Source of the DNA: a virus
IMG/VR virus record: IMGVR_UViG_3300034198_023093
Coordinates: 1-45,876 of that record
DNA length: 45,876 nucleotides
Strand: one strand, 5' to 3'
Position numbers and translations under genes: made by a program. The notes under the pieces were generated by a model. The model worked only from the letters and a program-made list of their open reading frames with translations, was not told the origin of the DNA and made no database searches. Of the stretch, positions 1-17,829 are shown piece after piece. The stretch's first letter is position 1. Every line of letters starts with the position of its first letter.

Positions 1-27
1 AGCACGTAAAGCACGTAAAGCACGTAT
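1..27 (+). repeat. Three tandem copies of a 9-bp unit
   Basis: The unit AGCACGTAA occurs three times in a row, the last copy ending in T. It encodes the Ala-Arg-Lys repeat at the end of the partial upstream gene, so it is most simply a coding microrepeat. Confidence 0.6.
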
Positions 28-82
28 GGCAGGTCAAAACCTTGGAGCACAGCTTGGCGTTGGCATGCCTAATGTTGCCTGA
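2..82 (+). CDS. C-terminal end of an upstream protein (partial)
   Basis: Reading frame 2 is open from the window edge to a TGA at 80-82 and encodes 26 residues. They begin with a repeated Ala-Arg-Lys motif and end in GMPNVA. Its place just upstream of the capsid gene would suit a portal or scaffold protein, but nothing visible identifies it. The 5' part lies outside the window. Confidence 0.55.
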   Translation, partial: ARKARKARMAGQNLGAQLGVGMPNVA

Positions 83-111
83 TAGTAAGCTAGTAATTGC
101 AGGAAAGACCC

Positions 112-414
112 ATGGATTGTTCTAAGGCAAAAAAAGCTAAATCAAAAGCTACTGCTCAACAAGCTGCAAAGAAAAAACGAACGCAGTCGGAGCAGGATGC
201 AAACAGCACGCAGGTCATGGGTAACATGTACGACATGATGGCGTCACAGGGAAAAATTCCTGGAACCGGAATTGTCCCTGAAGTCCAAGCTCAGAATATT
301 GCCATGCAAGATAAAACTCAAACTGTAAGCCCTTACAGGAATCTTGGCCCCAAACCAAACAACTATTACAACCCAGGTAACGTCATCGGGGGCGGATATG
401 TTCCCGGAAGTTAA
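112..414 (+). CDS. Small Lys-rich protein upstream of the capsid gene
   Basis: 100 aa from the ATG at 112, chosen over the TTG at 97 because AGGA at 101-104 sits as a ribosome binding site. The N-terminal third is rich in Lys, Ala and Gln (MDCSKAKKAKSKA). The rest is Gln/Asn/Pro/Gly-rich and ends in GGGYVPGS. No family is recognised. Its place between the preceding gene and the capsid gene suggests a head-assembly or internal protein; that is inference. Confidence 0.6.
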   Translation: MDCSKAKKAKSKATAQQAAKKKRTQSEQDANSTQVMGNMYDMMASQGKIPGTGIVPEVQAQNIAMQDKTQTVSPYRNLGPKPNNYYNPGNVIGGGYVPGS

Positions 415-431
415 TAACGGCTGTAAGTAAG

Positions 432-443
432 TGTTGCTATAAT
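432..443 (+). promoter_or_regulatory. Extended -10 promoter of the capsid gene
   Basis: A perfect TATAAT at 438-443 is preceded by TGC, the extended -10 arrangement. No good -35 is visible. It lies about 85 bases before the major capsid start, in the gap after the preceding gene, and would give a leader of about 78 nt. Confidence 0.5.
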
Positions 444-473
444 TATTACCAGTGGAGCAGTTGTTCCATGCAT

Positions 474-491
474 AGAGGATCTTTTTCCTCT
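474..491 (+). other. Leader hairpin upstream of the capsid gene
   Basis: AGAGGA (474-479) and TCCTCT (486-491) pair perfectly around a six-base T-rich loop. The hairpin lies between the -10 box and the capsid start, so it would form in the capsid mRNA leader and could stabilise the transcript. There is no T-run after it to make it a terminator. Confidence 0.35.
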
Positions 492-527
492 GGTTTCAGC
501 TAACTTCTCTTACGCTGAGTAACCCAC

Positions 528-1670
528 ATGTTCATTGATAATGATTTTCCGAAGCTGCTGGGCGCAGAACTCTATCGGCCCCACCCAGCTTACATCGTGG
601 AGATGGCTGCCGAACCGGTAGTTGTCCACGATTTCACTAAGCAGCCCGGCCAAACCGTGCAGCTGGACCGGTACCGCTTCTGGGGCAACCCCGGAACGAA
701 GACCAGCCGTGAGCGTACCCAGGATCAAACCATTGGTACCGCTAGCAGCCGGGCTATCGTCAAGGACAAGGTGCTGGTTTCTCTGCGTGAGTACACCGGC
801 CCTGCCGACCCGAACAACGTCAATGCTCCGAGCACTTTCAAGATCGCTCGTGAGACTCTGATGACCGCTCAGCGTCTTCTGCTGGACACGGGGAACCTCA
901 ACATGTTCCACCAGTCCATCGGCTCGCTGACCTTGCTCGATGATTATCGCCGTTGGAGGGACCGTGTGTTCCTTGACGAGATGGCGAAATCGGAGACTCG
1001 CGGCGCTTCGGGTGATACTCAAGGTGGTTACTACTACCCCAATGGTAAGACTCGCTCCAGCTCCACTGCTCTGAACTCTTTCACAGCTACCGAGTACGCC
1101 TCGGAGCGTTACAAGTTCAACGTCAAGACCGACCTCCTTGAAGTGGTTCGTCAGCTGCGTAAGCGTAACGTGCCTGTCTTCCAAGACGGCTACTACCGTT
1201 GTATCGCTGATCCCTCATTCATGCGCGATCTTCGCGCTGACCAGGGCTTCCGTGAAGTGGCACGCTATCCAGGCATGGGCCAAGGCAACCCCCTTATGGG
1301 TGCTACCGGACCCAGCCAAGCCATCTACGGCGGCGGTCAGTACGGCCAAGCCATGTTTGTTGCTGGTGAACCAGTGATGCCCACTGGCTTTGTTTTTGAA
1401 GGTGTGCGGTTCTTCGAATCCACCAACTTTGCTAGCAAGTCGATCACCGTGGACATTGGCGATGGTGGCGGTAGCATTTCTCATGTTACTCCTCCTGGCC
1501 TGTTCTTCGGTCCTCAAGCCGTAGGCGTAGGTATTGGTGGTCCGAACGCTCAGGTTCTCATCAACAACAACGACGACTTCAGCCGTTTCATCATTCTGAT
1601 TTGGCAGCTGTACGCCGGTTTTGCTAACCTGAACAAGGACTTCATCACTTCCGCTTTCACCATCATCTGA
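528..1670 (+). CDS. Major capsid protein
   Basis: 380 aa. It is the longest and best conserved protein of the head region, with its own strong -10 box. The N-terminal part has the PGQTVQLDRYRFWG signature followed by a region on activating and handling helices (LREYTGPADP, KIARETLMTAQRLLLDTGN), which I associate with N4 gp56-type HK97-fold capsid proteins. Later parts (DPSFMRDLRADQGFREVARY, then a Gly-rich segment and VRFFESTNFASK) also fit such coats. GC content and codon use are higher than in downstream tail genes, as expected for a highly expressed coat. The opposite-strand open frame across it is a codon-bias shadow. Confidence 0.75.
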   Translation: MFIDNDFPKLLGAELYRPHPAYIVEMAAEPVVVHDFTKQPGQTVQLDRYRFWGNPGTKTSRERTQDQTIGTASSRAIVKDKVLVSLREYTGPADPNNVNAPSTFKIARETLMTAQRLLLDTGNLNMFHQSIGSLTLLDDYRRWRDRVFLDEMAKSETRGASGDTQGGYYYPNGKTRSSSTALNSFTATEYASERYKFNVKTDLLEVVRQLRKRNVPVFQDGYYRCIADPSFMRDLRADQGFREVARYPGMGQGNPLMGATGPSQAIYGGGQYGQAMFVAGEPVMPTGFVFEGVRFFESTNFASKSITVDIGDGGGSISHVTPPGLFFGPQAVGVGIGGPNAQVLINNNDDFSRFIILIWQLYAGFANLNKDFITSAFTII

Positions 1671-1687
1671 TACGGAGGTAACTACAC

Positions 1688-2521
1688 ATGGCTATTTACA
1701 AATCTGGCGCAGCCCAAATCCTGCAACCTGGTGCCCAGGTCAACCGCCTTTCTGCTTACAACGCTGAAGGCGTCTATGGCTGGCCTGGTCTTGCCTGCTA
1801 CGAAGCAATCGCTTACGTGCCGGTTTCCGTGACCAGCGCGACCAATAACCCCGTTGGCCTTGACGTGATTATTCCTTCCCCTGATCGTCGTACTGACGAT
1901 CGTGTGCGGGATAACATCACGACGCTGACTTTGACGGGTAGCTCCACTGCCCCGATCTTTGTGTATGGCGCTTCTATTGCCCTTGCCAAGGATCTTCCTG
2001 CCAACAACGCTGCGGATCCCCTCCCCGGTTTCCCAGCAGACCCTGTAACGGCTGATCTGAAGTTCACCAACGCCACGGAGTACCTGCTGTTTGGTCCTGC
2101 CAACGGCACCGCGCCCCTTGGCATTCCTTCCTCCCAGACCACTGGCCTGGCTGCTGCTACTTCGTATCTGCAGGCCTCCAGTAGCACCATCGCCCAAGGC
2201 GCAGGCGCGACAACTGCTGGAACTGGTGTGGTTCCTTTCCCGTCTTCTGTTACCGGCACCATTGTGAGTAGCGATCTCGCCAACTCCATGCTGTACAAGG
2301 TCACCTCTGCTGTTACTTGGAAGGTGTTCAACACCACCGCCACTACTTCGACTACGAACAACGGCGGCGGTTACTTCATCTCTGCAGCTGACAGCGCCGC
2401 TGGTCGTATGGCTTACATCATTTGCCGTCTTAGCTACGTCCGGGCAGCTGCTGCTGTGTCCTGGAATGACATCCAAGACAAGATCGATTTTGCCTCGCAA
2501 ATCGGTGGAGACGACAGCTGA
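1688..2521 (+). CDS. Second head protein (capsid-associated, unknown role)
   Basis: 277 aa with a strong GGAGG ribosome binding site at 1674-1678, 17 bases after the capsid stop. The protein is Ala/Thr/Ser-rich and beta-prone, with no Cys-based motif beyond isolated residues. It shares the high-GC, highly expressed codon pattern of the capsid gene, and a strong terminator follows it, so the two form one transcription unit. A decoration, minor capsid or head-completion role is likely from position. No domain is recognised by name. Confidence 0.7.
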   Translation: MAIYKSGAAQILQPGAQVNRLSAYNAEGVYGWPGLACYEAIAYVPVSVTSATNNPVGLDVIIPSPDRRTDDRVRDNITTLTLTGSSTAPIFVYGASIALAKDLPANNAADPLPGFPADPVTADLKFTNATEYLLFGPANGTAPLGIPSSQTTGLAAATSYLQASSSTIAQGAGATTAGTGVVPFPSSVTGTIVSSDLANSMLYKVTSAVTWKVFNTTATTSTTNNGGGYFISAADSAAGRMAYIICRLSYVRAAAAVSWNDIQDKIDFASQIGGDDS

Positions 2522-2545
2522 TCCTGAAGGCAGTACTTCAGACAT

Positions 2546-2569
2546 AACGGGCCTAACGGCCCGTTTTTT
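2546..2569 (+). terminator. Rho-independent terminator after the capsid unit
   Basis: ACGGGCC and GGCCCGT pair over a TAAC loop, with an extra A-T pair, and a run of six T follows. It lies 25 bases after the second head gene and should end the capsid transcript. Confidence 0.85.
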
Positions 2570-2633
2570 CTGTCTGTATGGTGTTTTAAGATAAAGGTTG
2601 GTATTGTACTTGTAGTTCTTCTTTCAACTACGT

Positions 2634-3074
2634 ATGCTGTACCAGTACAAACCAACTGGCGCCCTTCTTGAAGTCGTGTCTCAGCACGGCGAAGGGATCT
2701 TAATGTGCGTCGATGCACAGGATGAAGTTTTTTTCGTGGAAGAGTCAGAACTTATTCCTCACCTGGGCGCTACTTCCGAAAAAATTCAAAACGAAGAACG
2801 TTTGACGGAACAGTTGAAGCAAGAGGGCGTTAATCCTGCAAAGCCCACTAACAAAGAAACGTTCCCGCTAGACACCAGAATCAACATCAACACTGCTAGT
2901 GCTCGCCAAATCGCAGACGCACTCCCCGGAGTTGGGCTTAAGACAGCGCGGGATATTAAAGATCTACAAACTTCGATGTCAGGGGAGAAATTTGTTCGAC
3001 TTGAGCAGCTCAAGGCAATCAAACGTGTTGATTGGGATGCAATTGTTGCAGATAATCTCGTTAGAGTCGAATAA
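2634..3074 (+). CDS. Helix-hairpin-helix protein
   Basis: 146 aa. The C-terminal half holds a ComEA-type helix-hairpin-helix, ININTASARQIADALPGVG followed by LKTARDI, where the LPGVG hairpin contacts the DNA or RNA backbone in this family. The N-terminal half (MLYQYKPTGALLEVV, acidic EVFFVEESEL) looks like a separate small beta domain. It sits between the head unit and the tail genes, so a DNA-binding role at the head-tail connector is plausible. The ATG at 2634 starts 65 bases after the terminator. Confidence 0.7.
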   Translation: MLYQYKPTGALLEVVSQHGEGILMCVDAQDEVFFVEESELIPHLGATSEKIQNEERLTEQLKQEGVNPAKPTNKETFPLDTRININTASARQIADALPGVGLKTARDIKDLQTSMSGEKFVRLEQLKAIKRVDWDAIVADNLVRVE

Positions 3075-3103
3075 TAGACAGAATTTCATCCATGTAGAAT
3101 AAG

Positions 3104-3130
3104 GGAAAGACGTGTCATCGCCGTCTTTCC
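3104..3130 (+). other. Leader hairpin, 9-bp perfect stem
   Basis: GGAAAGACG (3104-3112) pairs exactly with CGTCTTTCC (3122-3130) over a nine-base loop. It lies in the 75-base gap before the next gene. Only TTA follows, so it is a weak terminator or a leader structure. Confidence 0.4.
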
Positions 3131-3149
3131 TTAGTTCCGTTGTTAAGTA

Positions 3150-3629
3150 ATGCAACTTGACACCTTCCTCCAGTCGAAAGTTCGCTGGCATTTGGGATAC
3201 AACGTCACATCTATCCCTGCTGGCGACCAAGCCCGACTGGAAGAGGCCGTGAACAACATTCCTGATTCGTTTTGGTATAGCAAGATTTCTGAGCAGGTCA
3301 CTCGGTGCGACTATGCAGAAAAGCAGACCGACATGACCGGTTCAGTTAACAATTTCAACGTTCCTAAAAATCGTCTTGAAAACATCGCGGGAGATGTTTC
3401 ACGTACGATCTCAACTTCAGACTTTAAGGAGACTTTGAAAACTTGGTCACAAATCTATCTATACGAGACGGATCGATTAGCTCTCCATCTCTATGTTCCC
3501 AATTACCGAAACCCAGAACAGGCAAGGTACCGATTTAACCGAGAAGGCGCTGAGTTCATTCAAGCGCTCCCGGGTCCCGCTGACGTTGCTGTTGGCACTC
3601 GCATTCTGTTCGAAACCAGCTTCCGCTGA
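3150..3629 (+). CDS. Tail or connector protein with GTR-LFE C-terminal motif
   Basis: 159 aa, predicted soluble and mixed alpha/beta. No named family is recognised. Its last 13 residues (VGTRILFETSFR after DVA) are almost repeated at the end of the 8463-8930 protein (VGTRLLFEANYR), which suggests a common docking peptide for a virion partner. The stop lies 22 bases before the likely start of the GH104 gene. Confidence 0.6.
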   Translation: MQLDTFLQSKVRWHLGYNVTSIPAGDQARLEEAVNNIPDSFWYSKISEQVTRCDYAEKQTDMTGSVNNFNVPKNRLENIAGDVSRTISTSDFKETLKTWSQIYLYETDRLALHLYVPNYRNPEQARYRFNREGAEFIQALPGPADVAVGTRILFETSFR

Positions 3630-3651
3630 GATTATTGAAGGAATTCCAGTC

Positions 3652-4368
3652 ATGCCTGAAGACTACTCTTTCTATGCACAGCAAGTTCAAAAGCCTTCAG
3701 TACGTAGGCTCCTGAACACAATCCGATACGCAGAAGGTACTGCAGGTCCGGAAGGATACCGAACAAAATATGGTGGCGGTCTGTTTAGCGATTTCAATAG
3801 GCATCCTGACCAAGCTGTTAGCAGTGGCAGACACACCAGCACTGCAGCAGGCGCCTACCAGTTTCTAACTCCTACTTGGCAATCAGTATCTTCTAAGCTC
3901 GGCTTGAAAAAATTCGGTCCTCAAGAACAAGATATCGCTGCTGCTTATCTTGCGGATCAACGTTTAAAATCTTTAGGCGGACTTGCTGCCCTAGATAAAC
4001 AAGGAATGTCTTCACAAGTTGCGTCTGCACTTGCACCTGAATGGGCATCGTTTCCGACTATGAGAGGAGGCAGCTACTACGGTCAACCATCAAAAAATAT
4101 CAAAGAACTGCAAACTCAATATGGAATTACCCCCGGACCTACTACAACAGCGTCTACTAATCAACAGACTCGCACAGGCAATACTTACAATTTTTACGTT
4201 AACGGTGATGCAGACCCAGACACAAAAAACTTTTTGACTCGTTTCTTGTCTGAACACGGATTGCCTGATTTAGCAAATAGTTCTAAATCAGGAATTCCTT
4301 CGTTTGATCCTAATAATATGGTTAAGAATCTACAGAAAGCAATGTACTCTGAAACTGTGTACCAATGA
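3652..4368 (+). CDS. GH104 (lambda R-like) muralytic transglycosylase
   Basis: 238 aa from the ATG at 3652, which has GAAGGA about ten bases upstream. The N-terminal half matches the lambda R / GH104 pattern: IRYAEGTAGPEGY with the catalytic Glu, GGGLFSDFNRHPD, TAAGAYQFLTPTWQ, FGPQEQDIAAAYL. These enzymes cut peptidoglycan glycan strands, leaving anhydro ends. The C-terminal part (from NTYNFYVNGDADPD) is not catalytic and is shared with the next gene. The frame stays open upstream to 3493 and reads there like a signal peptide, but that stretch overlaps the preceding gene. A virion-borne entry enzyme is more likely than a lysis endolysin, given its place among structural genes. Confidence 0.75.
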   Translation: MPEDYSFYAQQVQKPSVRRLLNTIRYAEGTAGPEGYRTKYGGGLFSDFNRHPDQAVSSGRHTSTAAGAYQFLTPTWQSVSSKLGLKKFGPQEQDIAAAYLADQRLKSLGGLAALDKQGMSSQVASALAPEWASFPTMRGGSYYGQPSKNIKELQTQYGITPGPTTTASTNQQTRTGNTYNFYVNGDADPDTKNFLTRFLSEHGLPDLANSSKSGIPSFDPNNMVKNLQKAMYSETVYQ

Positions 4369-5030
4369 GCACAACTTTTGACATAGGAACTATCGCGCCA
4401 CCTGGAGCCGACTTTGCCAGCACAGGGGCACACCTTCACGGTTCTATTGTAAATCCTCAAGGAAAAGCTGTTGATCCTGAACAATTCAGGTCTATCTATT
4501 TATCGAGAATTCTTGTAGGAAAAGATAAACTTCCTCTATATTCCCAGAAAGGGTCTAGCTGGTCGCCAGCATTTCCTGTAACTTCAAAATACGGTCCGCG
4601 TGCGGCCCCCACCCCTGGCGCCTCCTCTTACCACCAGGGTGTTGATTTTGGTGTCCCTCAAGATACGCAACTGTCCTGGCTCGCTAAGCCTGGGGATAAA
4701 TTTACTCCGAAAAACGGTTACGGTGAAGTTGAAACTCCTGAAGGTTATAGAATTAAGTTTCTGCACACAAAACCAGGAGCCGCAGCGCAACTCCCTCTTT
4801 CTCAAACCGGAACCACAGTAACAGCAGGCTCTTCAACAAACCTTCCCGGTAATACATATAATTTCTACCTCGGCAGCAGGTCTAAAAGGTCTTCTTCTCC
4901 TGACGGAGTCTACGATATGTTGGATGCCTTCCTGGATAAAAACGGATTGAACTCACCGTCAACAGAATCTTTTGATCCTCTCAGTGCGCTTTACTCTGCT
5001 TTCAATTCAGCTTCTCAGTTATATTCATGA
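4365..5030 (+). CDS. M23-like peptidase domain protein with rearranged motif order
   Basis: 221 aa, starting in an ATGA overlap with the GH104 gene. The C-terminal part of a LytM/M23 zinc peptidase appears first (TGAHLHGSIVNPQGKAVDP, normally the end of the domain). The usual beginning follows: SKYGPRAAP, YHQGVDFG with the His and Asp ligands, then GYGEVETPEGYRIKFLH. M23 enzymes cut peptide crossbridges. The tail (NTYNFYLGS, then FLDKNGLNSPSTESFDPLSALYSAFNSA split by short gaps) matches the GH104 protein's tail. The order suggests a circularly permuted or reduced M23 domain; activity is uncertain. Confidence 0.6.
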   Translation: MSTTFDIGTIAPPGADFASTGAHLHGSIVNPQGKAVDPEQFRSIYLSRILVGKDKLPLYSQKGSSWSPAFPVTSKYGPRAAPTPGASSYHQGVDFGVPQDTQLSWLAKPGDKFTPKNGYGEVETPEGYRIKFLHTKPGAAAQLPLSQTGTTVTAGSSTNLPGNTYNFYLGSRSKRSSSPDGVYDMLDAFLDKNGLNSPSTESFDPLSALYSAFNSASQLYS

Positions 5031-5350
5031 GAACACTAGGTAGCTTCAACAAACACGTTAATCTTCCAAGTCACCCAGAGGACACGCGCAGGGTGTCTCG
5101 GCCTCAATTGCCTGCACCTAGGTTTAACCAGTTCGCAGAAGATACCAGAAACATGTCAGCTGGCGGTAAATTTGCCAACAGCAGGGGAAGAATGCGCTTT
5201 GCTGGCACTGCCATTGGAGCAGACATTCGCAACGGAGAACCAGTAGATCAAAGCGGTCAAGGTGGCCAACAGTTTGTAGCATCGTCAGGACAACAGTCTC
5301 GACAAGAACCGGCAAGTGGTGTAGGAGCTGCAGAAAGGCGGGTAAGTTAG
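5027..5350 (+). CDS. Small polar protein after the M23 gene
   Basis: 107 aa, starting in an ATGA overlap with the M23-like gene, so translation is probably coupled. Gln/Gly/Arg/Ser-rich and predicted disordered, with no motif. Probably a small virion or assembly protein; function unknown. Confidence 0.6.
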   Translation: MRTLGSFNKHVNLPSHPEDTRRVSRPQLPAPRFNQFAEDTRNMSAGGKFANSRGRMRFAGTAIGADIRNGEPVDQSGQGGQQFVASSGQQSRQEPASGVGAAERRVS

Positions 5351-5394
5351 TTACTTTCGCGCTACAATAAGATTAATTAGCCCAATAGAACTCC

Positions 5395-6165
5395 GTGTCC
5401 AGCTCCTCAACTAACAAGATGCCCGCGATGGTTGACCGTCCGGCAACCACAAGCGCCTTGGTAACTGTTGCGTCTGGTCAGCTTTTTTCCACTAGCCTTA
5501 TCCCCACTGCAGTGGGTAATGCAACTAAAGTTTTTGACGTCGATTCGTCGCTGACCGATACTGCTATCAGCGGTGCGTATGTTGATGAAATCTGGTTTCG
5601 CTACTCCAAGCTCTCTAACTTGTTTTTAGACGCCAAGGCAGCTTCGGCAGGTACTTACGCCCAGACGGGAACTTCTGTTGTTGTAACTCTTTCGGGTCAC
5701 AACCTTCAAGTCGGCCAAGCTGTGTACCTTGCCTACACAAGCGGCACTGGTGTGAGCGAAACTTTGACGGTCACTTCGATCACAGCCACCACTTTCACAG
5801 GAACAAGCGCTTCTACACTTACTACTTCAGGCAACGTTAACGTTTACCCGCCCCTTGATGCCTGCTTTTACCTTGTAAACACAGGTGCAATCACAAACAT
5901 CAACCAGTTCTTCCCGCTGTTTGTGGCCAGCATCCCCGCTACGCCAGCTAATCAAGTTTTCAGTCTTACTGAAAACAACATCCTCCCCCTGATTAACCAC
6001 CCTGTGGTGCAAGCAGGTGCAAACTTTACCTCTACTAATAGCAAGACCTCTCCCAAAACGCGTGGATTGATTCTGCAACGGGGACAGGCTCTTTATGTTG
6101 CTTTTAGTGGAACTACCTCTTTGACTAGTGGATTCTATGTAAACACCCAAGGCGGTTATTACTAA
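5395..6165 (+). CDS. Tail structural protein with one beta repeat domain
   Basis: 256 aa from GTG at 5395, with a possible TACAAT -10 at 5363-5368. Residues about 78-145 form a Thr/Val-rich unit of pattern T-Y-x-Q-x-G-T then HNLQVGQAVYL, ending TTSGNVNVY. Three more copies are in the next gene. This unit is common in cyanophage tail and baseplate proteins. The two genes are separated by only six bases. Confidence 0.65.
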   Translation: MSSSSTNKMPAMVDRPATTSALVTVASGQLFSTSLIPTAVGNATKVFDVDSSLTDTAISGAYVDEIWFRYSKLSNLFLDAKAASAGTYAQTGTSVVVTLSGHNLQVGQAVYLAYTSGTGVSETLTVTSITATTFTGTSASTLTTSGNVNVYPPLDACFYLVNTGAITNINQFFPLFVASIPATPANQVFSLTENNILPLINHPVVQAGANFTSTNSKTSPKTRGLILQRGQALYVAFSGTTSLTSGFYVNTQGGYY

Positions 6166-6171
6166 AAACCT

Positions 6172-8466
6172 GTGGCTTTCGGTAAAAACAGTTTCGCCGG
6201 AAATAATAGCGGTTTTAATGGAAAACTGTCTAAAGGATTTGATAGCCCAATAGACAACACTAAGATCAATTTTGATCAATTAGATACGCCTTTTACATTC
6301 ACGCCTAACGATTCACGTTTTAAGAGCAGGATTAAGTTCTACGACCGCGATTCATTGTGGGCACGGTGGAGACGCGGCTACGAGCTATACACAATTACTC
6401 AAAGTTTGTACGGATCGGGAGCTGCAAAGCGTTCCACAATCGGCGACTACAGGTTTAATTGTGCGTTTCAACACAAAAGCGGAATTTTTACAACAGCAAG
6501 AGTTTTTACTTTTCCCAGCAACACTTCAGAAAATGGAGAACAACTGGTTGCAGTAAGAGATGCGAATGTCTTCAATTTTTACGATTTTGGCTTACCAATA
6601 CTATCTACGGTTTATTTAGGGGCTGCATCAACAGCTGCTTACAGCCAATCCGGCACCGATATTGTAGTTTTATATCCAAACCATAATCTGCAACCCAGCG
6701 AACAAGTCCGGCTTACGTTTTTGAGTGGCTCTGCAGTAACAGCTACCTTACCTATAGTCAGCAGGACAACAGATTCTTTTACATGTACAGCAGCAACACC
6801 ACTGACTACTGTTGGGAATGTCTCTGTAGCTTTGTCAACAAGTTTTGAAGATGTTCGTTGGACAGAAACTAGAGTTAAAATTCGAAAACTTCCTGCGTTT
6901 ATTGATACAGTTGTTGGAGAAAGATTCACAGATCGTATAACTGAAACGGATCCTGGTGTTCTTGTAACTTACGCACAGTCTGGTTATTCAGTGAGTGTCA
7001 CGTGTGCCACAGAGCATGGTCTAGTAACTGGCAAAAAAATAAATTTCAGCACAACTACTGGGGATGCAGTAGCAGGTTTATTTTTAGTGCGCGTAACTTC
7101 TCCGACAACATTTGACATAACATCTTCTATTGAGCTTACAACTACAGGCACAGGGCTTGTTTATAGGTTGATTAAAAAGTATGATTATTCCGACTACGTT
7201 GGTTATACCGTAAAAAGTATTGATAGAGGAACAAACGAGATTGTTTTCCAGAGGCAAGATAGTTATGGGGCAGTAACTGATGATAATCAAAAAGTCAGCA
7301 TCACTGTACCAGCTCAACGAGGGTTTGCTTTAAGTCGATTTTTAACATCTGAGATTCGTTATCAGTGCGCTTGTCAAGACTTCACTAGAAGGCAAACATA
7401 TAACTTGTATGACGAGAAAACGTCGTCTCGTTTTCCTAAGACACCAATCACATCGGTTAAACCTGGATCTATTTTATACAAAGATGATTCAGTAGCAGAC
7501 AGGCGGGACAATGATGGTATTTTCAGCGACTTTGGTTATATTTCTACTAGCAATTTCAACACGCTTTCTACTTACAGAGATCAAAAAGAAACGTGTTACA
7601 CGGAATTAATGTATTACCAGATGCGGTGGTGTAAGCACATTTACGCGGCTCTTTTTTCTTTGGTTCATGATGAAGGGAACCAAAAAATAGATATTTTTGG
7701 AACTTACACACAAACTGGCGATACAACTGTAACCATAACAAGCGTTGACCATGGGTTAAATTCCGGGATTAAAATTGCAGTTGAGTTTGAGGATAATACG
7801 GCATTAAGCGGATACTACACAGTAAACAGTGTCATTGGTAAAGATACGTTTACTATGGTTTATCCTTATGTGCAGACTGTTTCGGGTAGATGTATTGTCA
7901 ACAATATAAAAATTCATGAGTACATTAAAGATTGGTTATTAGAGCCATCTGATCATCCTGTTGGAGATAAGTCAGACGCTTTTTATGATAACTTTGAAAA
8001 ACAAAGTTCCGCATTGAAGCAATCTCTTGAAAAGAGCGTGATGTTAAAAATGGGAAAACCTTGGATAGGTTCTCTTGTCACTTTGAATGATAACAGCCTA
8101 CCCCAACAAACACCAAACTACGATGAATCACTTATTTCTTCCATATTGACTGATCACGTGCTTCGCGACGAAGCAGGTAATTTAAGCCCTACAGGCACAC
8201 AGGTCAATTATACCGAAACCATGATTGCCATTGTAAGTAAAGTATTGAATCTGTCACCTTCTTATATTGAATCTGGAATGTTTGGATATATTAATCAGCC
8301 TGCAATTAATTTTCCTCCTAACTATCAAGCAAAAACTATATCTGCTGGATCTTATAGTGCAACAACTCCCACTGTCTTTTCTGAAATCATCGATTGTTCG
8401 ACGTATAGTCCCTACGTTCTGCAAGATGTTATTATTGATTGCGGGCAGTACACAGTTGCACCATGA
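6172..8466 (+). CDS. Large tail protein with three beta repeats and a SWIM-like Cys/His pattern
   Basis: 764 aa from GTG at 6172. Copies of the Y-x-Q-x-G ... H-G/N-L ... T-T-x-G repeat begin near residues 156, 266 and 510. Between the second and third is CAC at 399-401 and CKH at 487-489, the CxC...CxH ligand set of a SWIM zinc finger, but with an unusually long spacer of 85 residues. I recall annotations of this kind in cyanophage structural proteins. Residues after about 600 are mostly helical. AT content is higher than in the capsid gene. A tail-hub or baseplate role is likely. Confidence 0.65.
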   Translation: MAFGKNSFAGNNSGFNGKLSKGFDSPIDNTKINFDQLDTPFTFTPNDSRFKSRIKFYDRDSLWARWRRGYELYTITQSLYGSGAAKRSTIGDYRFNCAFQHKSGIFTTARVFTFPSNTSENGEQLVAVRDANVFNFYDFGLPILSTVYLGAASTAAYSQSGTDIVVLYPNHNLQPSEQVRLTFLSGSAVTATLPIVSRTTDSFTCTAATPLTTVGNVSVALSTSFEDVRWTETRVKIRKLPAFIDTVVGERFTDRITETDPGVLVTYAQSGYSVSVTCATEHGLVTGKKINFSTTTGDAVAGLFLVRVTSPTTFDITSSIELTTTGTGLVYRLIKKYDYSDYVGYTVKSIDRGTNEIVFQRQDSYGAVTDDNQKVSITVPAQRGFALSRFLTSEIRYQCACQDFTRRQTYNLYDEKTSSRFPKTPITSVKPGSILYKDDSVADRRDNDGIFSDFGYISTSNFNTLSTYRDQKETCYTELMYYQMRWCKHIYAALFSLVHDEGNQKIDIFGTYTQTGDTTVTITSVDHGLNSGIKIAVEFEDNTALSGYYTVNSVIGKDTFTMVYPYVQTVSGRCIVNNIKIHEYIKDWLLEPSDHPVGDKSDAFYDNFEKQSSALKQSLEKSVMLKMGKPWIGSLVTLNDNSLPQQTPNYDESLISSILTDHVLRDEAGNLSPTGTQVNYTETMIAIVSKVLNLSPSYIESGMFGYINQPAINFPPNYQAKTISAGSYSATTPTVFSEIIDCSTYSPYVLQDVIIDCGQYTVAP

Positions 8467-8930
8467 CGACTCAAATCTTAAATAGGCGTTCTGACCTAAT
8501 CTTTGATAGGCCGATCCCTACTCAGTTGGGTGTAGCAGAAATCGCGGTCAATACAAACCCAGCAGAGCCGGGGTTGTTTGTGCCTGATAGTACTCCGTCA
8601 CCCGGGACAGGTCTGATAAAGATCGGCCCTACAGCAATCGGAACCACTGCTCCTAACAGCACGCCGAGCGGGTATGGTTTTCTATCGAAAGGCGAGTCCT
8701 GGTTGGACACCTCAAGTACTCACATCTTGAAACTTTATGATGGAACTTCTTGGCAGAGTGTAAAGGCTGTTGTATCCATCAGCGCAGGTAAGGCTCCAAC
8801 TCCTGCAAACGGGCAAATGCACTACGATAAAACTGACACAAAACTTTACACTTATGAACAATCGACCAGCACCTGGCTCACTGACGTTTCAGTCGGAACT
8901 CGGCTGTTATTTGAAGCTAACTACAGGTAA
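8463..8930 (+). CDS. Tail protein with GTR-LFE C-terminal motif
   Basis: 155 aa from the ATG at 8463, in an ATGA overlap with the large tail gene; the longer frame from 8439 is less likely. The N-terminal part (NRRSDLIFDRPIPTQLGVAEIAVNTNPAEPG, in two pieces) resembles the start domain of phage fibres. The middle has TSWQSVK-type fibre repeats. The end VGTRLLFEANYR repeats the end of the 3150-3629 protein. Confidence 0.65.
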   Translation: MTTQILNRRSDLIFDRPIPTQLGVAEIAVNTNPAEPGLFVPDSTPSPGTGLIKIGPTAIGTTAPNSTPSGYGFLSKGESWLDTSSTHILKLYDGTSWQSVKAVVSISAGKAPTPANGQMHYDKTDTKLYTYEQSTSTWLTDVSVGTRLLFEANYR

Positions 8931-8937
8931 AAAGCCA

Positions 8938-9195
8938 TCACGAACCACCCTTAGTCATGAGGTAGTCCAGGATTCTATCCAATTTATTGTGAACCGCTTG
9001 TACCTCCCTTAAAAAATCTTCCTTGAGCACATAATCATGCAGTACAGTACTTTTTAAAGAGTCAAGCTCAGTTTCAATTTTCTCAAACCGCTTATCAAGT
9101 ACTTCTTTGGCTGATTTGTGCCATTTGATGATTGTTCCCAATGCGCCCACTGCTCCTGAAAATGCGGCGCCAGCAAAAACTTCTAGGGACATCAT
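8938..9195 (-). CDS. Small membrane-anchored coiled-coil protein (holin-like candidate)
   Basis: 85 aa, convergent with the preceding tail gene. Residues about 3-25 (LEVFAGAAFSGAVGALGTII) form one hydrophobic segment. The rest is a charged heptad-like helix (RFEKIETELDSLKSTVLH, EVQAVHNKLDRILDYL). One N-terminal membrane helix plus a coiled coil fits holin-like or spanin-like accessory proteins of phages. It lies alone on the - strand inside the tail module, as such genes often do in cyanophages. The function is inferred. Confidence 0.6.
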   Translation of the reverse strand: MMSLEVFAGAAFSGAVGALGTIIKWHKSAKEVLDKRFEKIETELDSLKSTVLHDYVLKEDFLREVQAVHNKLDRILDYLMTKGGS

Positions 9196-9272
9196 CTACG
9201 TGTTGTATCTCTTCTCTTATTCTAAAAGAGTGAATCAACTAAAATAGACCCTGACAATACCAGTGCTTTTAT

Positions 9273-9929
9273 ATGGCAACGCAGGTTCAGTTTCGCCGAG
9301 GCACCACTGCGCAAATTGCTGCTTTTGCAGGTACTCAGGCAGAAGTGGTGGTCGATACTTCGAAGACAACTTGTGTGGTTTGTGATGGTTCTACTCCTGG
9401 CGGTTTTCCGCTTTTACGTGAAGACGGAACTAACACAGCGCTATCTCCTGGTTCGTTAAACAGCTGCGCACTGAAATTTGCTAGTAACGCAGGCACGGGA
9501 CTCATCAGCCCAAGCACTGGAACCCTGGCATTAGTTGCTAGTGGTATTCAAGGTTTATTGGTCACCTCTTCAGGAGATTTAGCCATCCCTGGTAATGTAA
9601 CGTTAGCCGGAACCTTGAGTCTGGCCGGACCGGTCCTCAGGGCAGCTCCCTCATCTCAAACTACAAGTTTTACTGTAACGCCGTCCGTATCCAGATACGT
9701 GTGTAATGGAACAGGTACAATCACAGTCACACTTCCTAGCGCAGCTACGTATACTGGATTTGAGCTGCTGATCAAAACCGTTGCAGCACAGGCTGTAGTG
9801 TCGGGCTCCAGCGACGTTGTGCCTTTGACAGGGGGTAGTCAAGGCACTGCCATTCTAAGTGCCGCAGCAGGAAAATGGGCTTCTCTTGTAAGCGACGGAA
9901 CCTCTTGGATCATCATGAGTGGTAACTAG
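9273..9929 (+). CDS. Tail-fibre protein with mtd-like N-terminus
   Basis: 218 aa. It begins MATQVQFRRGTTAQ and continues GTQAEVVVDTSKTTCVVCDG, the 'RRGTTAQ ... E...DT' opening of phage fibre domains related to the major tropism determinant N-terminus. The middle is a Gly/Thr/Ser beta repeat (NVTLAGTLSLAG). The C-terminal half ends in a compact beta domain with GKWASLVSDGTSWIIMSGN, a common fibre tip. Probably a receptor-contacting fibre. Confidence 0.7.
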   Translation: MATQVQFRRGTTAQIAAFAGTQAEVVVDTSKTTCVVCDGSTPGGFPLLREDGTNTALSPGSLNSCALKFASNAGTGLISPSTGTLALVASGIQGLLVTSSGDLAIPGNVTLAGTLSLAGPVLRAAPSSQTTSFTVTPSVSRYVCNGTGTITVTLPSAATYTGFELLIKTVAAQAVVSGSSDVVPLTGGSQGTAILSAAAGKWASLVSDGTSWIIMSGN

Positions 9930-9971
9930 ACCCGTTTTACGTTAAACTGAGTGAGACACACAAGGTAAACA

Positions 9972-10754
9972 GTGGCCGATCTCGACATTACCTCTAAGCA
10001 AGTTACCTGGTTCAAGAAGAAACCAGTGGCTGCTGATACTTTGCCAAACGATAAAAAAGCGCGTGTTGTTAAGGGACGCACATATCGAGGATGTACTCCG
10101 GTTGGACATCAAGACGGGCATACTCACCTGGACATGGGAGTCCTGGGTGACTGGTGGGTGTTTGATGAACACTGGCTCGGTCTTGTTCCAGCCAAAAAGC
10201 TGTATGCAGAAGATGGGAATTTAAGGTATCTCAGAAACTTCCCTTACTTCTGGCAACAGGATAATGGAAATGAAGGGTGGAGGCAGTGTCAATCAAGTTC
10301 GATTGCAATGTGTCTGAAATATCTCAATGTCCCAGGTATTAATGACGATATTGATTATTTGCACTATGTAAATAAGTACGGAGATACGACTACTCGAGCC
10401 GCACATTATAGGGCTTTAAGTGAACTCAAGGTCCCCGCCGCTTTCAAAATGAACCTTGATGAGATTGACATCAAAGCTCAAATTGACTCAGGTAAGCCTG
10501 TACCTGTAGGGATTCTCCATCACGGCACAGTAGATTCTCCACGGGGGGGAGGCCATTTCATCGTGATCACCGGTTACTCTGGTGACGATTTTTGGTTGGT
10601 GCAGGATCCGTTTGGAGAACTTGATCTGGTCAACGGTTACTGGCTGGAGCAAACCCCTACGGCAGGTAAGAATCAACACTATTCCTTCCGTAATCTGAAG
10701 TCCAGATTGTTCGTAGGAGGTGGAGCATCTGGTTGGGGATGGATTTTCCAATGA
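9972..10754 (+). CDS. C39-like papain-fold peptidase, probable endolysin
   Basis: 260 aa from GTG at 9972. A small SH3-like part (VVKGRTYRG) is followed by a C39_2-type cysteine peptidase domain. The Cys is C106 in WRQCQSSSIAMCLKYL, the His is H195 in GGGHFIVITGY, and an Asp/Asn-position residue is D212 in VQDPFG. All three catalytic positions are present. In phages such domains can cut peptidoglycan peptides, so an endolysin or virion hydrolase is likely. The short hydrophobic gene that overlaps its stop supports a lysis cassette. Confidence 0.7.
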   Translation: MADLDITSKQVTWFKKKPVAADTLPNDKKARVVKGRTYRGCTPVGHQDGHTHLDMGVLGDWWVFDEHWLGLVPAKKLYAEDGNLRYLRNFPYFWQQDNGNEGWRQCQSSSIAMCLKYLNVPGINDDIDYLHYVNKYGDTTTRAAHYRALSELKVPAAFKMNLDEIDIKAQIDSGKPVPVGILHHGTVDSPRGGGHFIVITGYSGDDFWLVQDPFGELDLVNGYWLEQTPTAGKNQHYSFRNLKSRLFVGGGASGWGWIFQ

Positions 10755-10942
10755 ACGGAACGCAGCTTCACAACCTTGCTTTAGGGTTTCAAGATTTTTC
10801 TACAATCCTGTTTAACCTGCATATTGTTTCGTTGTGTATCATTAACTTGACTAAGAGCCCAGGCACTGAAGGCATCGAGTCCAGGTTATACCGCACTTTG
10901 GAAATGTTGGCAGGATTATTAACACCGTTGGCTAAGCGCTGA
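10751..10942 (+). CDS. Small hydrophobic protein overlapping the peptidase stop
   Basis: 63 aa from the ATG at 10751, in an ATGA overlap with the peptidase gene. One moderately hydrophobic segment (FSTILFNLHIVSLCIINL) and a basic C-terminus (LLTPLAKR). Position and size suit a holin or holin partner, but the hydrophobic stretch is short of a clear membrane helix. Low certainty on function. Confidence 0.55.
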   Translation: MNGTQLHNLALGFQDFSTILFNLHIVSLCIINLTKSPGTEGIESRLYRTLEMLAGLLTPLAKR

Positions 10943-10964
10943 TCTTGCTTATTACTTAAATAAC

Positions 10965-11156
10965 ATGAATACTATTGATGAATTAGAGTCCGATTTGCTT
11001 CAAAAATTAAACACCCTCGAAGTAGAGATTCGCTCTACAGAGAACAAACTTCTCTCATTGAAAGAGGTTTACCTGAAGACTTCGGGGGGTTTGGATGCCA
11101 TTACCTTCGTCAAAAGTCTTCCAGCTTTTAAGGATGAAGCCGCGACTCGGATTTGA
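10965..11156 (+). CDS. Small coiled-coil protein
   Basis: 63 aa, Leu/Glu/Lys-rich heptads (LESDLLQKLNTLEVEIR) predict a coiled coil. The last 19 bases lie antisense to the tRNA-Thr gene. Small coiled-coil proteins often follow lysis genes in phages. No family is recognised. Confidence 0.5.
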   Translation: MNTIDELESDLLQKLNTLEVEIRSTENKLLSLKEVYLKTSGGLDAITFVKSLPAFKDEAATRI

Positions 11157-11212
11157 ACCGAGGATAACCTGATTACAAATCAGGTGCAGTAGGCCAGCTG
11201 TGCTATCGCGGC
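11138..11212 (-). tRNA. tRNA-Thr (anticodon UGU)
   Basis: Reverse complement folds as a normal cloverleaf. The acceptor stem GCCGCGA pairs with TCGCGGC, the anticodon stem CCTGA pairs with TCAGG, and the loop TTTGTAA gives anticodon TGT with T33 in place. The T arm is CTCGG-TTCAAAT-CCGAG. No CCA is encoded. It reads ACA and lies five bases from a second tRNA, forming a pair against the direction of the surrounding genes. Confidence 0.92.
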
Positions 11213-11217
11213 AGTGG

Positions 11218-11300
11218 TAGGAGCGACGGGGGTCGAACCCGTACAATCACAGATTATCGGAGCTTAAATCCGATGCGTCTACCAATTTCGCCACGCTCCT
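11218..11300 (-). tRNA. tRNA-Leu (anticodon UAA)
   Basis: Reverse complement gives acceptor stem AGGAGCG/CGCTCCT, D arm with GGTAGACGC, anticodon stem TCGGA/TCCGA with loop TTTAAGC (anticodon TAA), a long class II variable arm, and T arm ACGGG-TTCGACC-CCCGT. The long variable arm fits leucine. No CCA is encoded. It reads UUA, a codon favoured in the AT-richer tail genes. Confidence 0.92.
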
Positions 11301-11370
11301 AAGCCCTGCAATCATACAGTACAGAACAGGTGTGTGCACCGTAGTTTTAGGTCAGATTCATGATGTGCTC

Positions 11371-11778
11371 ATGTTTCACTGCGAAAACGACCTTCTTGCA
11401 AACCTGATTGTTCTCAGCCCCAAGATCGCACGTAAACGATTTCGAGAGGGCATCTTCAAAGATTGGGAGTGGTGCTGTGCTTATTGTGACAAACAATTAA
11501 GCACGTCTGAAGCAACAATTGACCATGTGATTCCAAAACACAAAGGAGGCCACAGCACAAGGAACAACATGGTCTGCTCCTGTTCTGTTTGCAATAGGAA
11601 CAAAGGATCGCAGAACGTGTTTGAGTACATGAGCCCTGATAACGCTCATTATTCAGAGCAAAGGGTTGGTAAACTTAAAGAATGGATGGATCAGCGACCC
11701 TGTTCCGTAAGACTCTTTACAGAATTACCCGGAACGATTAGGTACTCCGATGAAGCAACAACAGCCTGGGCAACCTGA
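11371..11778 (+). CDS. HNH endonuclease
   Basis: 135 aa from ATG 11371; a GTG at 11332 would add 13 residues, but family members typically begin at the MFHCENDLLANL position. Motifs are CCAYCDKQL (first CxxC), then TIDHVIPKHKGG (the HNH His with zinc-finger support), then CSVCNRNKGS (second CxxC). This is the zinc-stabilised HNH fold, cutting DNA as a homing or packaging-type nickase. It lies next to tRNAs, where homing endonucleases often insert. The final stretch overlaps a 56-aa reading frame. Confidence 0.8.
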   Translation: MFHCENDLLANLIVLSPKIARKRFREGIFKDWEWCCAYCDKQLSTSEATIDHVIPKHKGGHSTRNNMVCSCSVCNRNKGSQNVFEYMSPDNAHYSEQRVGKLKEWMDQRPCSVRLFTELPGTIRYSDEATTAWAT

Positions 11779-11920
11779 TCCGAAAGAGTTTGCTAGTGGG
11801 TACGCTAGTCAAGTGGCCAGAGCCGTCGAAGAACTTCAGAAAGAGCGCAGTGAGGAGTATCCTTTACTGACAGGTCAGGTTGGCAACACGGTTTCAGATC
11901 GAGCTTCGAATTACGCTTAG
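11750..11920 (+). CDS. Small protein, 56 aa
   Basis: ATG 11750 to TAG 11920, overlapping the HNH stop by 29 bases. Begins MKQQQPGQPDPKEFASGY and then has an amphipathic helix (VARAVEELQKERSEEY). It ends two bases before the next gene, so it is translationally linked. No motif. It fills an otherwise unexplained gap. Confidence 0.55.
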   Translation: MKQQQPGQPDPKEFASGYASQVARAVEELQKERSEEYPLLTGQVGNTVSDRASNYA

Positions 11921-11922
11921 TT

Positions 11923-12195
11923 ATGGCAGACAGAGCTAAAGCTAAACACTTGGCCAAGGAGCACATGAAGTGCAACTGCCCGCACAAGGCCCCCCCTGGC
12001 GACACCCATAAATGGGTGGTTAAATCCTGCCATGACGGTGAAGAGAAGATCGTCCGATACGGTCGTCGAGGCTATCAGGACTATACGCAACATCACGATC
12101 CTGAGAGGAGAAAGAACTTCCGAGCTAGGATGAGGTGTGATGAGCCAATGGATAAAAACAGTGCTCGTTACTGGGCCTGCTCAAAACTCTGGTGA
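11923..12195 (+). CDS. Conserved Cys-rich cyanophage-type protein
   Basis: 90 aa with a basic Cys/His-rich pattern: CNCPHK, KSCHDGEEKIVRYGRRGY, RRKNFRARMRCDE and a C-terminal SARYWACSKLW. I recall this RARHKC/ARYWxCK layout from conserved hypothetical proteins of cyanophages. Possibly zinc-binding and virion-associated. Not named. Confidence 0.7.
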   Translation: MADRAKAKHLAKEHMKCNCPHKAPPGDTHKWVVKSCHDGEEKIVRYGRRGYQDYTQHHDPERRKNFRARMRCDEPMDKNSARYWACSKLW

Positions 12196-12200
12196 TCTAG

Positions 12201-12671
12201 ATGGCTAAGACGACAACCGACAAAACAACTCCCTGCTACTGCCACTTGACACAGTGTTTGCGGGATTCTGTTCACGTTTACCACCAGACCCAGCTAGTCC
12301 ACTGGAATTTGATGGGCAGCAAATTTTATGAAATTCACTTGTTGACTGAACGAATTTACCAGGAGATGGAGGAGGGTAACGACACGATTGCCGAGCACAT
12401 CCGATCTCTTGATATCGGTACACCTAAAACGGTCGAAGACTTGGTATATTCAACTATGCCAGAGGTTCCTCTGGAAAACTGTTTTAATCAAGATCCAATT
12501 ATTCTCCAGCTCGCAACCAACCATAATCTACTTGCTCTAAAGTTTGAAGAGCTGATTAAGATGTCGGAACAGCTGGGAGATCAATTAACACTCGATCTTG
12601 GCGTCGAGCGTGGGCGTGTGCACAAGAAAAATCAGTGGCTGCTAAAGTCAAATTTAGATTACAAGAAGTAA
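12201..12671 (+). CDS. Dps-like ferritin
   Basis: 156 aa. The core QLVHWNLMGSKFYEIHLLTE and GNDTIAEHI is the Dps (DNA-binding protein from starved cells) signature. The ferroxidase ligands sit at H34, H46, E50, D61 and E65, exactly the 12-4-11-4 spacing of E. coli Dps (H51, H63, D67, D78, E82), with one conservative D-to-E change. The C-terminal helix VHKKNQWLLKSNL also fits. Dps oligomers oxidise Fe(II) with peroxide and store iron, and many bind DNA. No long Lys-rich DNA-binding tail is present. It lies five bases from the next fibre gene. Confidence 0.75.
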   Translation: MAKTTTDKTTPCYCHLTQCLRDSVHVYHQTQLVHWNLMGSKFYEIHLLTERIYQEMEEGNDTIAEHIRSLDIGTPKTVEDLVYSTMPEVPLENCFNQDPIILQLATNHNLLALKFEELIKMSEQLGDQLTLDLGVERGRVHKKNQWLLKSNLDYKK

Positions 12672-12675
12672 GTAA

Positions 12676-13023
12676 ATGTCTAACGCTCCTATTTTTGTTG
12701 ATACTCTTTTTTGCTACCCTGCGGCACTTACAGCCACGGGTACAACATCTATCTGCGTAATCGCTGACCAAGACAACGCAGGCTCAGTGTCTACGGCATT
12801 CCAGGTTACAGTCGCTTCGATCGGAACTTCTGTTATTGTTCGTTTTGAAGGTAGCTTAGATGGGACAAATTTCTTTGCTTTAGCAGCAACTGATACAACG
12901 ATTAGTAGTAACGGAACCACAGGTTACAATTTTCCTAACTTTCCTCTTAAAGCTGTTCGTGGGAGGTTGGTAACAATTACTACCGGAACACCCACTGTTA
13001 CTTTTGTTATAGCTGCCAAGTAA
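12676..13023 (+). CDS. Small beta-sandwich fibre protein, paralogue of 17005-17349
   Basis: 115 aa. Shares with the 17005 gene the layout F-Y-P near the start, then VIVRFEGSLDGTNFFAL, NFPLKAVRGRL and a final VTFVIAAK. The Thr/Val-rich beta structure is typical of fibre or decoration modules. The five-base gap after the Dps gene implies one transcript. Function inferred from context. Confidence 0.65.
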   Translation: MSNAPIFVDTLFCYPAALTATGTTSICVIADQDNAGSVSTAFQVTVASIGTSVIVRFEGSLDGTNFFALAATDTTISSNGTTGYNFPNFPLKAVRGRLVTITTGTPTVTFVIAAK

Positions 13024-13028
13024 ACCAC

Positions 13029-13370
13029 ATGTCAGTCCATCCTGCTACCTACGACGATACTATCAGGACACAGGCTGTCTATGATATGACGTTGCAATTT
13101 CAGGATAGCAACGGTAGAAATATTGATCTTACCGGTTGGACTGTTTCTGCACAAATCTGGAATATCGGCAAAACCACACAATATGCAACTTTTACTGTTG
13201 ATAATTCTGGTGCGGCATCTGGTGTTGTTGTACTAAGTTTGACTACAACACAGACGACTTCTTTGCCAATAGGAACTGCGTATTACGATGTACTGCTTAC
13301 TAACTTGTCGGGAAGAAAAGAGTATTATTTAAAAGGAACTTTTTATATTCAGCAGGGGTATTCAACATGA
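13029..13370 (+). CDS. Fibre-base protein
   Basis: 113 aa: YDMTLQFQDSNGRNIDLTGW, ALS-type beta strands, QTTSLPIGTAYYDVLLTN and GRKEYYLKGTF. This is an all-beta domain I associate with baseplate upper or fibre-attachment proteins. Overlaps the collagen-like gene by four bases. Confidence 0.65.
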   Translation: MSVHPATYDDTIRTQAVYDMTLQFQDSNGRNIDLTGWTVSAQIWNIGKTTQYATFTVDNSGAASGVVVLSLTTTQTTSLPIGTAYYDVLLTNLSGRKEYYLKGTFYIQQGYST

Positions 13371-13711
13371 CCGCTGTATATCAAATTCTTGTTACGACCA
13401 CTAACAGTTCTGTTCTTGTAACAGTAACTGATACAAGAACTGTCTCAGTAATAACTGCTGGGCCACAAGGACCAAAAGGCCTTACAGGGGACACTGGACC
13501 ACCAGGTCAATCTGGAGCGTCCGCATATGTGTTTCAGCAGGCAGCGCCTGCCACTACCTGGACCATTAACCACAACCTGGGCTATCGGCCCAGTGTTGAG
13601 CTGCTGGATTCTGGCAGCCAGGAGATTGATGGGGATGTATCACACCCGAGCATCAATCAAACCCTTGTAACCCTTACTCCAGCAACAGCGGGTTTGGCCC
13701 GACTGATCTAA
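13367..13711 (+). CDS. Collagen-like tail fibre
   Basis: 114 aa, ATGA overlap with the preceding gene. A Gly-X-Y stretch (GPQGPKGLTGDTGPPGQSG) forms a short collagen-like triple helix. It is followed by a receptor-tip domain (WTINHNLGYRPSVELLDSG, then SINQTLVTLTPATAGLARLI) common at the ends of phage fibres. Probably trimeric. Confidence 0.75.
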   Translation: MTAVYQILVTTTNSSVLVTVTDTRTVSVITAGPQGPKGLTGDTGPPGQSGASAYVFQQAAPATTWTINHNLGYRPSVELLDSGSQEIDGDVSHPSINQTLVTLTPATAGLARLI

Positions 13712-13731
13712 CCACTTATTGAGGTACCATC

Positions 13732-14523
13732 ATGGCCCGCAAATTTTTTACTGACATCGACATGCAGTCGGTGTCAAAAGTTGTCAACCTTCCCAGCCCT
13801 ACAGCCTCCGGTGATGCCGTCCCGAAGTCCTATGTGGATTCTGCGATTGAGGGCCTGGCCTGGAAAGACTCGTGCCGAGTTGCTTCTCAAGCGAACCTAA
13901 GCATCGCCACCCCCGGCGCAACAATTGATGGGGTGACGATGGTCTCACAAGATCGTGTGTTGGTTAGAGCCCAGACAGCAGGTGCTGAGAACGGGATTTA
14001 TGTGTGGAACGGTGCTTCGGTTGCGCTGACGCGCTCACTGGACGCTACTACATTTGACGAGCTGGAACAGGCGGTAGTGTCTATCGAGGAGGGCACTAGC
14101 GCTAGTGCCACGTACCGACAAACGGCGGTAAATGGGACGCTCGGAACAACAACAATCACTTGGACTACGTTTGGAACCGGTGCGCCAGCCGCTAGTGAAA
14201 CCACCTCCGGTATTGCTGAGCTTGCAACTCAGGCTGAAACTGATGCAGGTACTGATGATTTACGAATTGTTACTCCACTAAAGCTGACAAACTGGTCTGG
14301 TCGGATCAAGAAGTTTTCAGCTAACATCGGAGATGGTAGTGCCCTTACCTACACAGTGACGCACAGCCTGAACACCCGCGATGTGATTGTTCGCGTATTC
14401 CCTAACAGTGGGCAGTTTGATGACGTTGAGGTTGATGTGCAGCGTACTTCTGTGAACGCTGTCGCCTTGGTGTTTGCAACCGCACCAGCAACCAACGCCT
14501 ATCGCGTTGTGGTGATTGGCTAA
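13732..14523 (+). CDS. Tail-fibre protein
   Basis: 263 aa, with a GAGGT site before ATG 13732. MARKFFTDIDMQSVSKVVNLPSPTASGDAVPKSYVDSAIEGL contains the fibre spacer P-x-A-x-G-D-A-x-x-K-x-Y-V-D. ENGIYVWNGASVALTRSLDA follows, then ETTSGIAELATQAETDAGTDD and a C-terminal tip ending AYRVVVIG. All are standard long-fibre modules. The stop overlaps the next start by one base. Confidence 0.75.
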   Translation: MARKFFTDIDMQSVSKVVNLPSPTASGDAVPKSYVDSAIEGLAWKDSCRVASQANLSIATPGATIDGVTMVSQDRVLVRAQTAGAENGIYVWNGASVALTRSLDATTFDELEQAVVSIEEGTSASATYRQTAVNGTLGTTTITWTTFGTGAPAASETTSGIAELATQAETDAGTDDLRIVTPLKLTNWSGRIKKFSANIGDGSALTYTVTHSLNTRDVIVRVFPNSGQFDDVEVDVQRTSVNAVALVFATAPATNAYRVVVIG

Positions 14524-15718: not shown

Positions 15719-15729
15719 CCATCACCACG

Positions 15730-16893: not shown

Positions 16894-17004
16894 AATCAAG
16901 CTTTAGTACGCCCGCTTCCGGACAACCATTGCCACCTAGTGGCACCTTCGCCTATTATTCTCATTGAGATCGACATAACAGGCATCTTAACTAAGAGCAA
17001 TTCA

Positions 17005-17349: not shown

Positions 17350-17397
17350 TCTAGCTGGTGCTAAGACTACGTAAAATATAACAGTGCAGTAAATCCA

Positions 17398-17824: not shown

Positions 17825-17829
17825 GGAAA

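Follow-up and report, generated by a model that had tools for sequence, protein, structure and literature searches.

A probable circularly permuted M23-like peptidase domain in a cyanophage and its relatives, paired with a lysozyme-type hydrolase that shares its C-terminal tail

We analysed a 45,876-nucleotide stretch of viral DNA (positions 1 to 45,876 of IMG/VR record IMGVR_UViG_3300034198_023093), hereafter called the window, and focused on the gene located at positions 4365-5030 (+ strand). The encoded protein probably has two parts, an M23 (LytM-like) zinc peptidase domain that is circularly permuted (about 145 residues) and, after it, a C-terminal tail; metal binding and peptidase activity are inferred. 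Few wall hydrolases have been studied as thoroughly as the M23 enzymes. Automatic annotation expects their motifs in one order, and the permuted branch is missed or labelled ‘tail protein’. No report of a permuted M23 was found in the literature searched, and ‘permut’ does not occur in the available part of an M23 review (PMC9662197).

The gene encodes 221 amino acids and its start codon lies on the stop codon of the upstream gene (ATGA overlap). From the N- to the C-terminus, the protein carries the motifs TGAHLHG (residues 20-26; 4422-4442), VDP (36-38), SKYGPR (74-79), HQGVD (90-94; 4632-4646) and FLH (132-134). In ordinary M23, HxxxD comes first and HxH last, as described in the accessible portion of the review (PMC9662197). 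Both zinc motifs are present in the window protein (HxxxD as HQGVD and HxH as HLH, residues 23-25), and the usual succession HxxxD, catalytic His, HxH is not respected because HxH leads. Residues 1-41 (4365-4487) correspond to the former C-terminal part of the domain, residues 42-70 (4488-4574) to a linker that connects the original termini, and residues 71-137 (4575-4775) to the former N-terminal part, while the C-terminal tail starts at residue 162 (4848-5027; GNTYNFYL...FDPLSALYSAF).

Sequence searches with the window protein gave little. No Pfam family was retrieved at E ≤ 1 and the curated cut-off of PF01551 was not reached; PHROGs returned endolysin and metallo-endopeptidase matches confined to residues 68-105; and the PDB sequence search returned only an irrelevant antibody chain (E 0.33).

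A canonical M23 HMM (121 positions) was built from the 57 bacterial domains of ordinary order found in a genome scan. It aligned to the window protein in two stretches, i.e. residues 9-41 with model positions 88-119 (12.5 bits) and residues 71-162 with model positions 4-93 (49.4 bits), which jointly span positions 4-119 about once with the halves swapped. The total of 64.0 bits compares with 6.4 bits for the best of 1025 shuffles (25 for each of 41 permuted proteins), and confirms the reversed motif order noticed in the initial annotation. Swapped halves were recovered in 38 of the 41 permuted proteins, the N-terminal half alone scoring 5.0-16.7 bits where found; in the other three (S-EIVl, L044 and L069), no N-terminal match exceeded 3 bits and the larger half only was aligned. 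When the canonical model was doubled, one continuous match ran over the old C-to-N junction in all six tape-measure copies described below. No such junction-spanning match was obtained with the doubled model for the cyanophage copies, probably because of their longer linker (the linker of the tape-measure copies is shorter than that of the window protein). The single coverage of the model in swapped order, its recurrence and the six junction-spanning matches support circular permutation, which was one of the two origins first suggested for this gene. Profile alignment places the cut site in the loop between the strand of the catalytic ‘YxHL’ His (here FLH) and the ‘IGxxG’ strand leading to HxH, and permuted M23 proteins are a natural experiment on where, among its loops, the M23 fold can be opened.

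The textbook route to a permuted protein is tandem duplication followed by loss of the ends. A tandem intermediate was found neither among 80 genome loci nor among 79 ORFs. The second origin suggested at the outset, the loss of half of a second domain, is not needed to explain what is present. In one protein (L093), model positions 84-92 were weakly matched at both ends, possibly a faint trace of tandem duplication.

The initial annotation had also proposed a search for other proteins of this order, and these were found in large numbers. A scan of viral contigs gave 226 relatives, 80 of which were kept; together with L002 and the window protein, they form a set of 82 proteins, of which 81 have the reversed order and one (L046) is cut by the contig end. 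A second viral scan, keyed on GAS[TS]xHxGxD, gave 80 reversed loci out of 80, the rows kept being those nearest the query. When TG[AP]HLD[IV]R only was used, at least 79 ORFs were retrieved, in which HxGxD came after this motif in 67, before it in none and was not found in 12. Of 11 distinct ORFs among these 12, five stop before the motif, five are permuted with the His of HxxxD altered and one is unrelated. The five altered ones (L257, L282, L286, L290 and L295) are long ORFs (807-1610 aa) with a TGPHLDIR-type permuted domain and replacements such as SGGGAID; these domains may possibly be inactive.

The permuted domain also occurs in tape-measure proteins of Moraxella phages Mcat18-23 and of Acinetobacter phages such as YMC11/11/R3177. 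With the Mcat20 domain as query, tblastn retrieved 32 records, including 6 Moraxella and 24 Acinetobacter phages; the permuted order and the HLDxR motif were checked by reading in Mcat20 and YMC11/11/R3177, the other tape-measure phages being identified by tblastn. These copies differ from the window protein in being embedded in a long tail protein, in their shorter linker and in being annotated only as tail or tape-measure proteins. In the genome scan (80 loci), 57 loci had the ordinary order, four were permuted (all Acinetobacter long ORFs) and 19 were neither according to regular expressions, many of these being truncated. Of 292 genomes from the phylum of Scytonema, 18 gave a match, one of which is permuted (a 218-aa ORF, L378); among 274 genomes of the class of Acinetobacter, there was no match at 1e-10 except in the query genome. 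Phage M23s of S-PM2, S-RIM44, ACG-2014f, PaV-LD, Floof and two faecal contigs are of canonical order and were set aside as not permuted.

That the reversed order recurs in S-EIVl, in phages of Moraxella and Acinetobacter and in numerous contigs rules out misassembly. Membership of M23 in its plain form was ruled out by the motif order, and the protein was filed as a permuted variant. It shares with M23 (PF01551; LytM, lysostaphin, MepM, phi29 gp13) the HxxxD and HxH motifs, the further catalytic His, GxR and the GASxxH context, but the halves are unswapped in M23. On sequence evidence, the permuted arrangement is a large, overlooked phage family, some members of which come within reach of existing profiles: against a PF01551 cut-off of 28.7 bits, L002 scores 39.1 bits and the Mcat20 domain 28.7 bits.

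Structure was predicted with AF2. The full-length model (34 sequences) had a mean pLDDT of 81.9 and a pTM of 0.65, with low confidence at residues 154-177, and residues 1-146 (46 sequences) were predicted as one compact beta domain (pLDDT 94.1, pTM 0.87). With either model, no M23 was present among the best 50 rows of a Foldseek search against PDB. None was present among the matches listed by Foldseek against BFVD (best, the 1191-residue piece A0A510E7V3_3, E 1.3e-8) or by VIA-align (best, thrombocorticin, Z 4.3-4.4). Foldseek and VIA-align are sequential aligners and are weak on permutations, so that the missing M23 match neither supports nor refutes an M23 fold. The predicted beta domain is confident, and a match to a LytM-type fold remains unshown as no M23 chain appeared in the structure listings.

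This absence from the best 50 rows, together with the mere 12.5 bits of the N-terminal half of the window protein taken alone, could be held to indicate two unrelated fragments, i.e. the HxxxD part of an M23 domain preceded by an HLH-like stretch that arose by chance, the two not forming one domain. We regard this as very improbable. A chance stretch would not be expected to be kept, in the same order, over cyanobacterial, Acinetobacter and Moraxella phages, nor to be followed by HxGxD in 67 ORFs and preceded by it in none when at least 79 ORFs were collected through the N-terminal motif alone. Moreover, L002 starts with a textbook IGxxGSTGxxTGPHIH and is matched by PF01551 in two stretches.

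We further compared the active-site positions within the permuted family. The four catalytic or ligand positions compared, H23, H90, D94 and H134, show no variation across 46 aligned sequences, and a single joint active site is therefore likely to be kept in the permuted proteins, for which there are no metal-binding or activity data. Position 25, by contrast with these four, is Asp in 43 of the 46 sequences and His in three. Across the 82-protein set, Asp replaces the second His of HxH in 79 proteins, always with an Arg two residues on (HxDxR), whereas His without this Arg is found in three, namely the window protein (HLH), L013 and L002. In the canonical domains, this position is His in 57 out of 57 and Arg never occurs two residues on. 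In M23, according to the part of the review available (PMC9662197), the second His of HxH binds zinc; the Asp would thus belong to a coupled double change and may, by inference, be an alternative metal ligand. HxDxR can be seen as a natural exchange of a zinc ligand, in which Asp takes the place of His and is coupled to an Arg. In the phylogenetic tree, the window protein pairs with L013 (support 100/98) and L002 sits on a long branch, which does not settle which of HLH and HLD came first among the permuted proteins.

With the second His of HxH missing from 79 of the 82 proteins, it cannot be taken for granted that the family is active. The permuted domain could have lost peptidase activity and act in the virion as a LytM-like factor, either structural or amidase-activating, a reading that we find unlikely. 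It is encouraged by the systematic HxDxR replacement of a zinc-ligand His, by the loss of the HxxxD histidine in five permuted ORFs and by the existence of degenerate M23 folds with other functions, mentioned in the M23 review (PMC9662197). It has to be reconciled with the invariance of H23, H90, D94 and H134 in 46 sequences and with the HLH retained in the window protein. Furthermore, Asp is also able to bind zinc.

The phage itself could be placed through its major capsid protein (528-1670, +; phrog_1357), which is 69.4 % identical to that of S-EIVl over its full length, S-EIVl being the only match among 50,697 phage records. On this basis, the window phage is assigned to the S-EIV1 lineage, a widespread cyanophage lineage as worded in a title cited in PMC6157547 and PMC5332604. 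Megablast of window positions 1-20000 against phages gave no match. The window, S-EIVl and L002 share the gene order capsid, second structural gene, HHH protein. The annotation of the S-EIVl capsid gene (L001 3406-4632) looks wrong, as it shows two hypothetical proteins, one on each strand.

S-EIVl also encodes a protein recorded as ‘peptidase M23 family’ (AHV82231), which is homologous to the window protein over residues 1-190, has the reversed order and lies in a similar genome neighbourhood. It differs in having HLD instead of HLH, and permutation is not mentioned in its record. The tail partner in S-EIVl (AHV82234, Phage_lysozyme2) is encoded some 1.6 kb downstream, whereas the partner in the window is directly upstream.

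This upstream partner (3652-4368, +) is a lysozyme-type hydrolase of 238 aa from the ATG at 3652, matching phrog_90 ‘endolysin’ (E 1.6e-29) and no wall-hydrolase Pfam family. Its C-terminal tail (4177-4365, +; GNTYNFYVNG...FDPNNMVKNLQKAMYS) resembles that of the M23-like protein: the alignment of GNTYNFYLGSRS...SFDPLSALYSAF with GNTYNFYVNG...SFDPNNMVKNLQKAM reached a local score of 69, compared with 49 for the best of 1000 shuffles. The pairing is not limited to the window. For 35 loci, we compared the M23 tail with the remaining ORFs of its own locus, and in 33 the best match was equalled by none of 200 shuffles; the two exceptions were L002 (1/200 as good) and L044 (4/200), in which the best match was an antisense frame and which was consequently left out of the tail matrix. 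Without it, the mean score was 91.8 with the own-genome partner versus 50.3 with those of other genomes, and none of 10,000 permutations reached the observed sum. Since related genomes are not independent, this count should not be read as a probability. In only 9 of 34 genomes does the own partner come first, because the tails of near relatives are near-identical.

An HMM of 31 M23 tails (L001, L002 and L069 excluded from the training set) was then run on 1730 ORFs. It found the partner in 26 of 31 cases at E ≤ 0.001 and in 28 at E ≤ 0.01, the best other ORF being at 0.061; the partners of L001, L002 and L069 were not found at E ≤ 1. The partner is directly upstream of the M23 gene in 31 of 34 loci. 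Among ten partners scanned, five matched SLT or SLT_3, one Phage_lysozyme2 and three the phrog_90 endolysin (window, L048 and L069); the remaining one (L002) matched none, and a SleB-like identity considered for it was dropped, as family scans gave no support. The glycan-cutting head thus varies, whereas the tail remains matched to the M23 encoded in its own genome. Most simply, we infer that the shared tail reflects common docking to a lineage-variable part of the virion; alternatively, a wall-binding module may have undergone repeated gene conversion.

On the basis of sequence conservation and of what is known of the M23 site, we infer that the permuted chain would still adopt the usual barrel, in which zinc would be bound by H90, D94 and H25 and catalysis would involve H23 and H134. 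The permuted M23 would probably cut the peptide cross-links of cyanobacterial peptidoglycan and the lysozyme encoded upstream, paired with it, would cut the glycan. The same tail on both enzymes would probably be a virion docking tag, and the two would be delivered together, opening the cyanobacterial wall for DNA entry. We infer that such a virion-borne wall-opening pair acting at entry is the most likely role, because the genes lie among capsid genes, because the window has other endolysin candidates and because the homologous domain is found in tape-measure proteins; virion location, zinc binding and activity have not been shown.

A lysis-stage pair of endolysins, with the shared tail as a wall- or membrane-binding module, has also to be weighed: PHROGs labels the partner family ‘lysis/endolysin’, and a C-terminal module common to two hydrolases could well be a binding domain. 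Nevertheless, the genes lie amid capsid and structural genes in S-EIVl and L002 as in the window, the Phage_lysozyme and C39-like ‘endolysin’ encoded elsewhere in the window mean that the pair need not be the lysis enzyme, and the domain within tape-measure proteins of other phages points the same way, so that we consider a lysis role doubtful. Returning to the virion-borne pair, we remain evenly divided on its fuller form, i.e. that S-EIV1-like phages load a glycan hydrolase and a permuted M23 into the virion through a shared lineage-specific C-terminal tag, the head being exchanged (SLT, SLT_3, Phage_lysozyme2, phrog_90) and the tag M23-matched, with a metal site shifting from H/D/H to H/D/D (HxH to HxDxR). 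Such a candidate tag could explain how tailed phages load and swap their wall-piercing enzymes. Encapsulin cargo-loading (targeting) peptides, short tags that load enzymes into a protein shell according to the available part of PMC10960027, are comparable by analogy only: the phage tails are longer and genome-specific, have two carriers per locus and no known docking partner.

Several other genes of the window deserve mention. A zinc metalloprotease (15730-16893, +) with HEVGHSLGLVH and Pfam matches to Reprolysin_5 and Reprolysin_3 looks unusual in a phage. An S-adenosylmethionine decarboxylase (31793-32239, +) and a ferritin-like protein (12201-12671, +) are candidate auxiliary metabolic genes. 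Finally, the C39-like ‘endolysin’ (9972-10754, +) and the Phage_lysozyme protein (18164-18910, +) are wall-hydrolase candidates, of which the window genome has four altogether.
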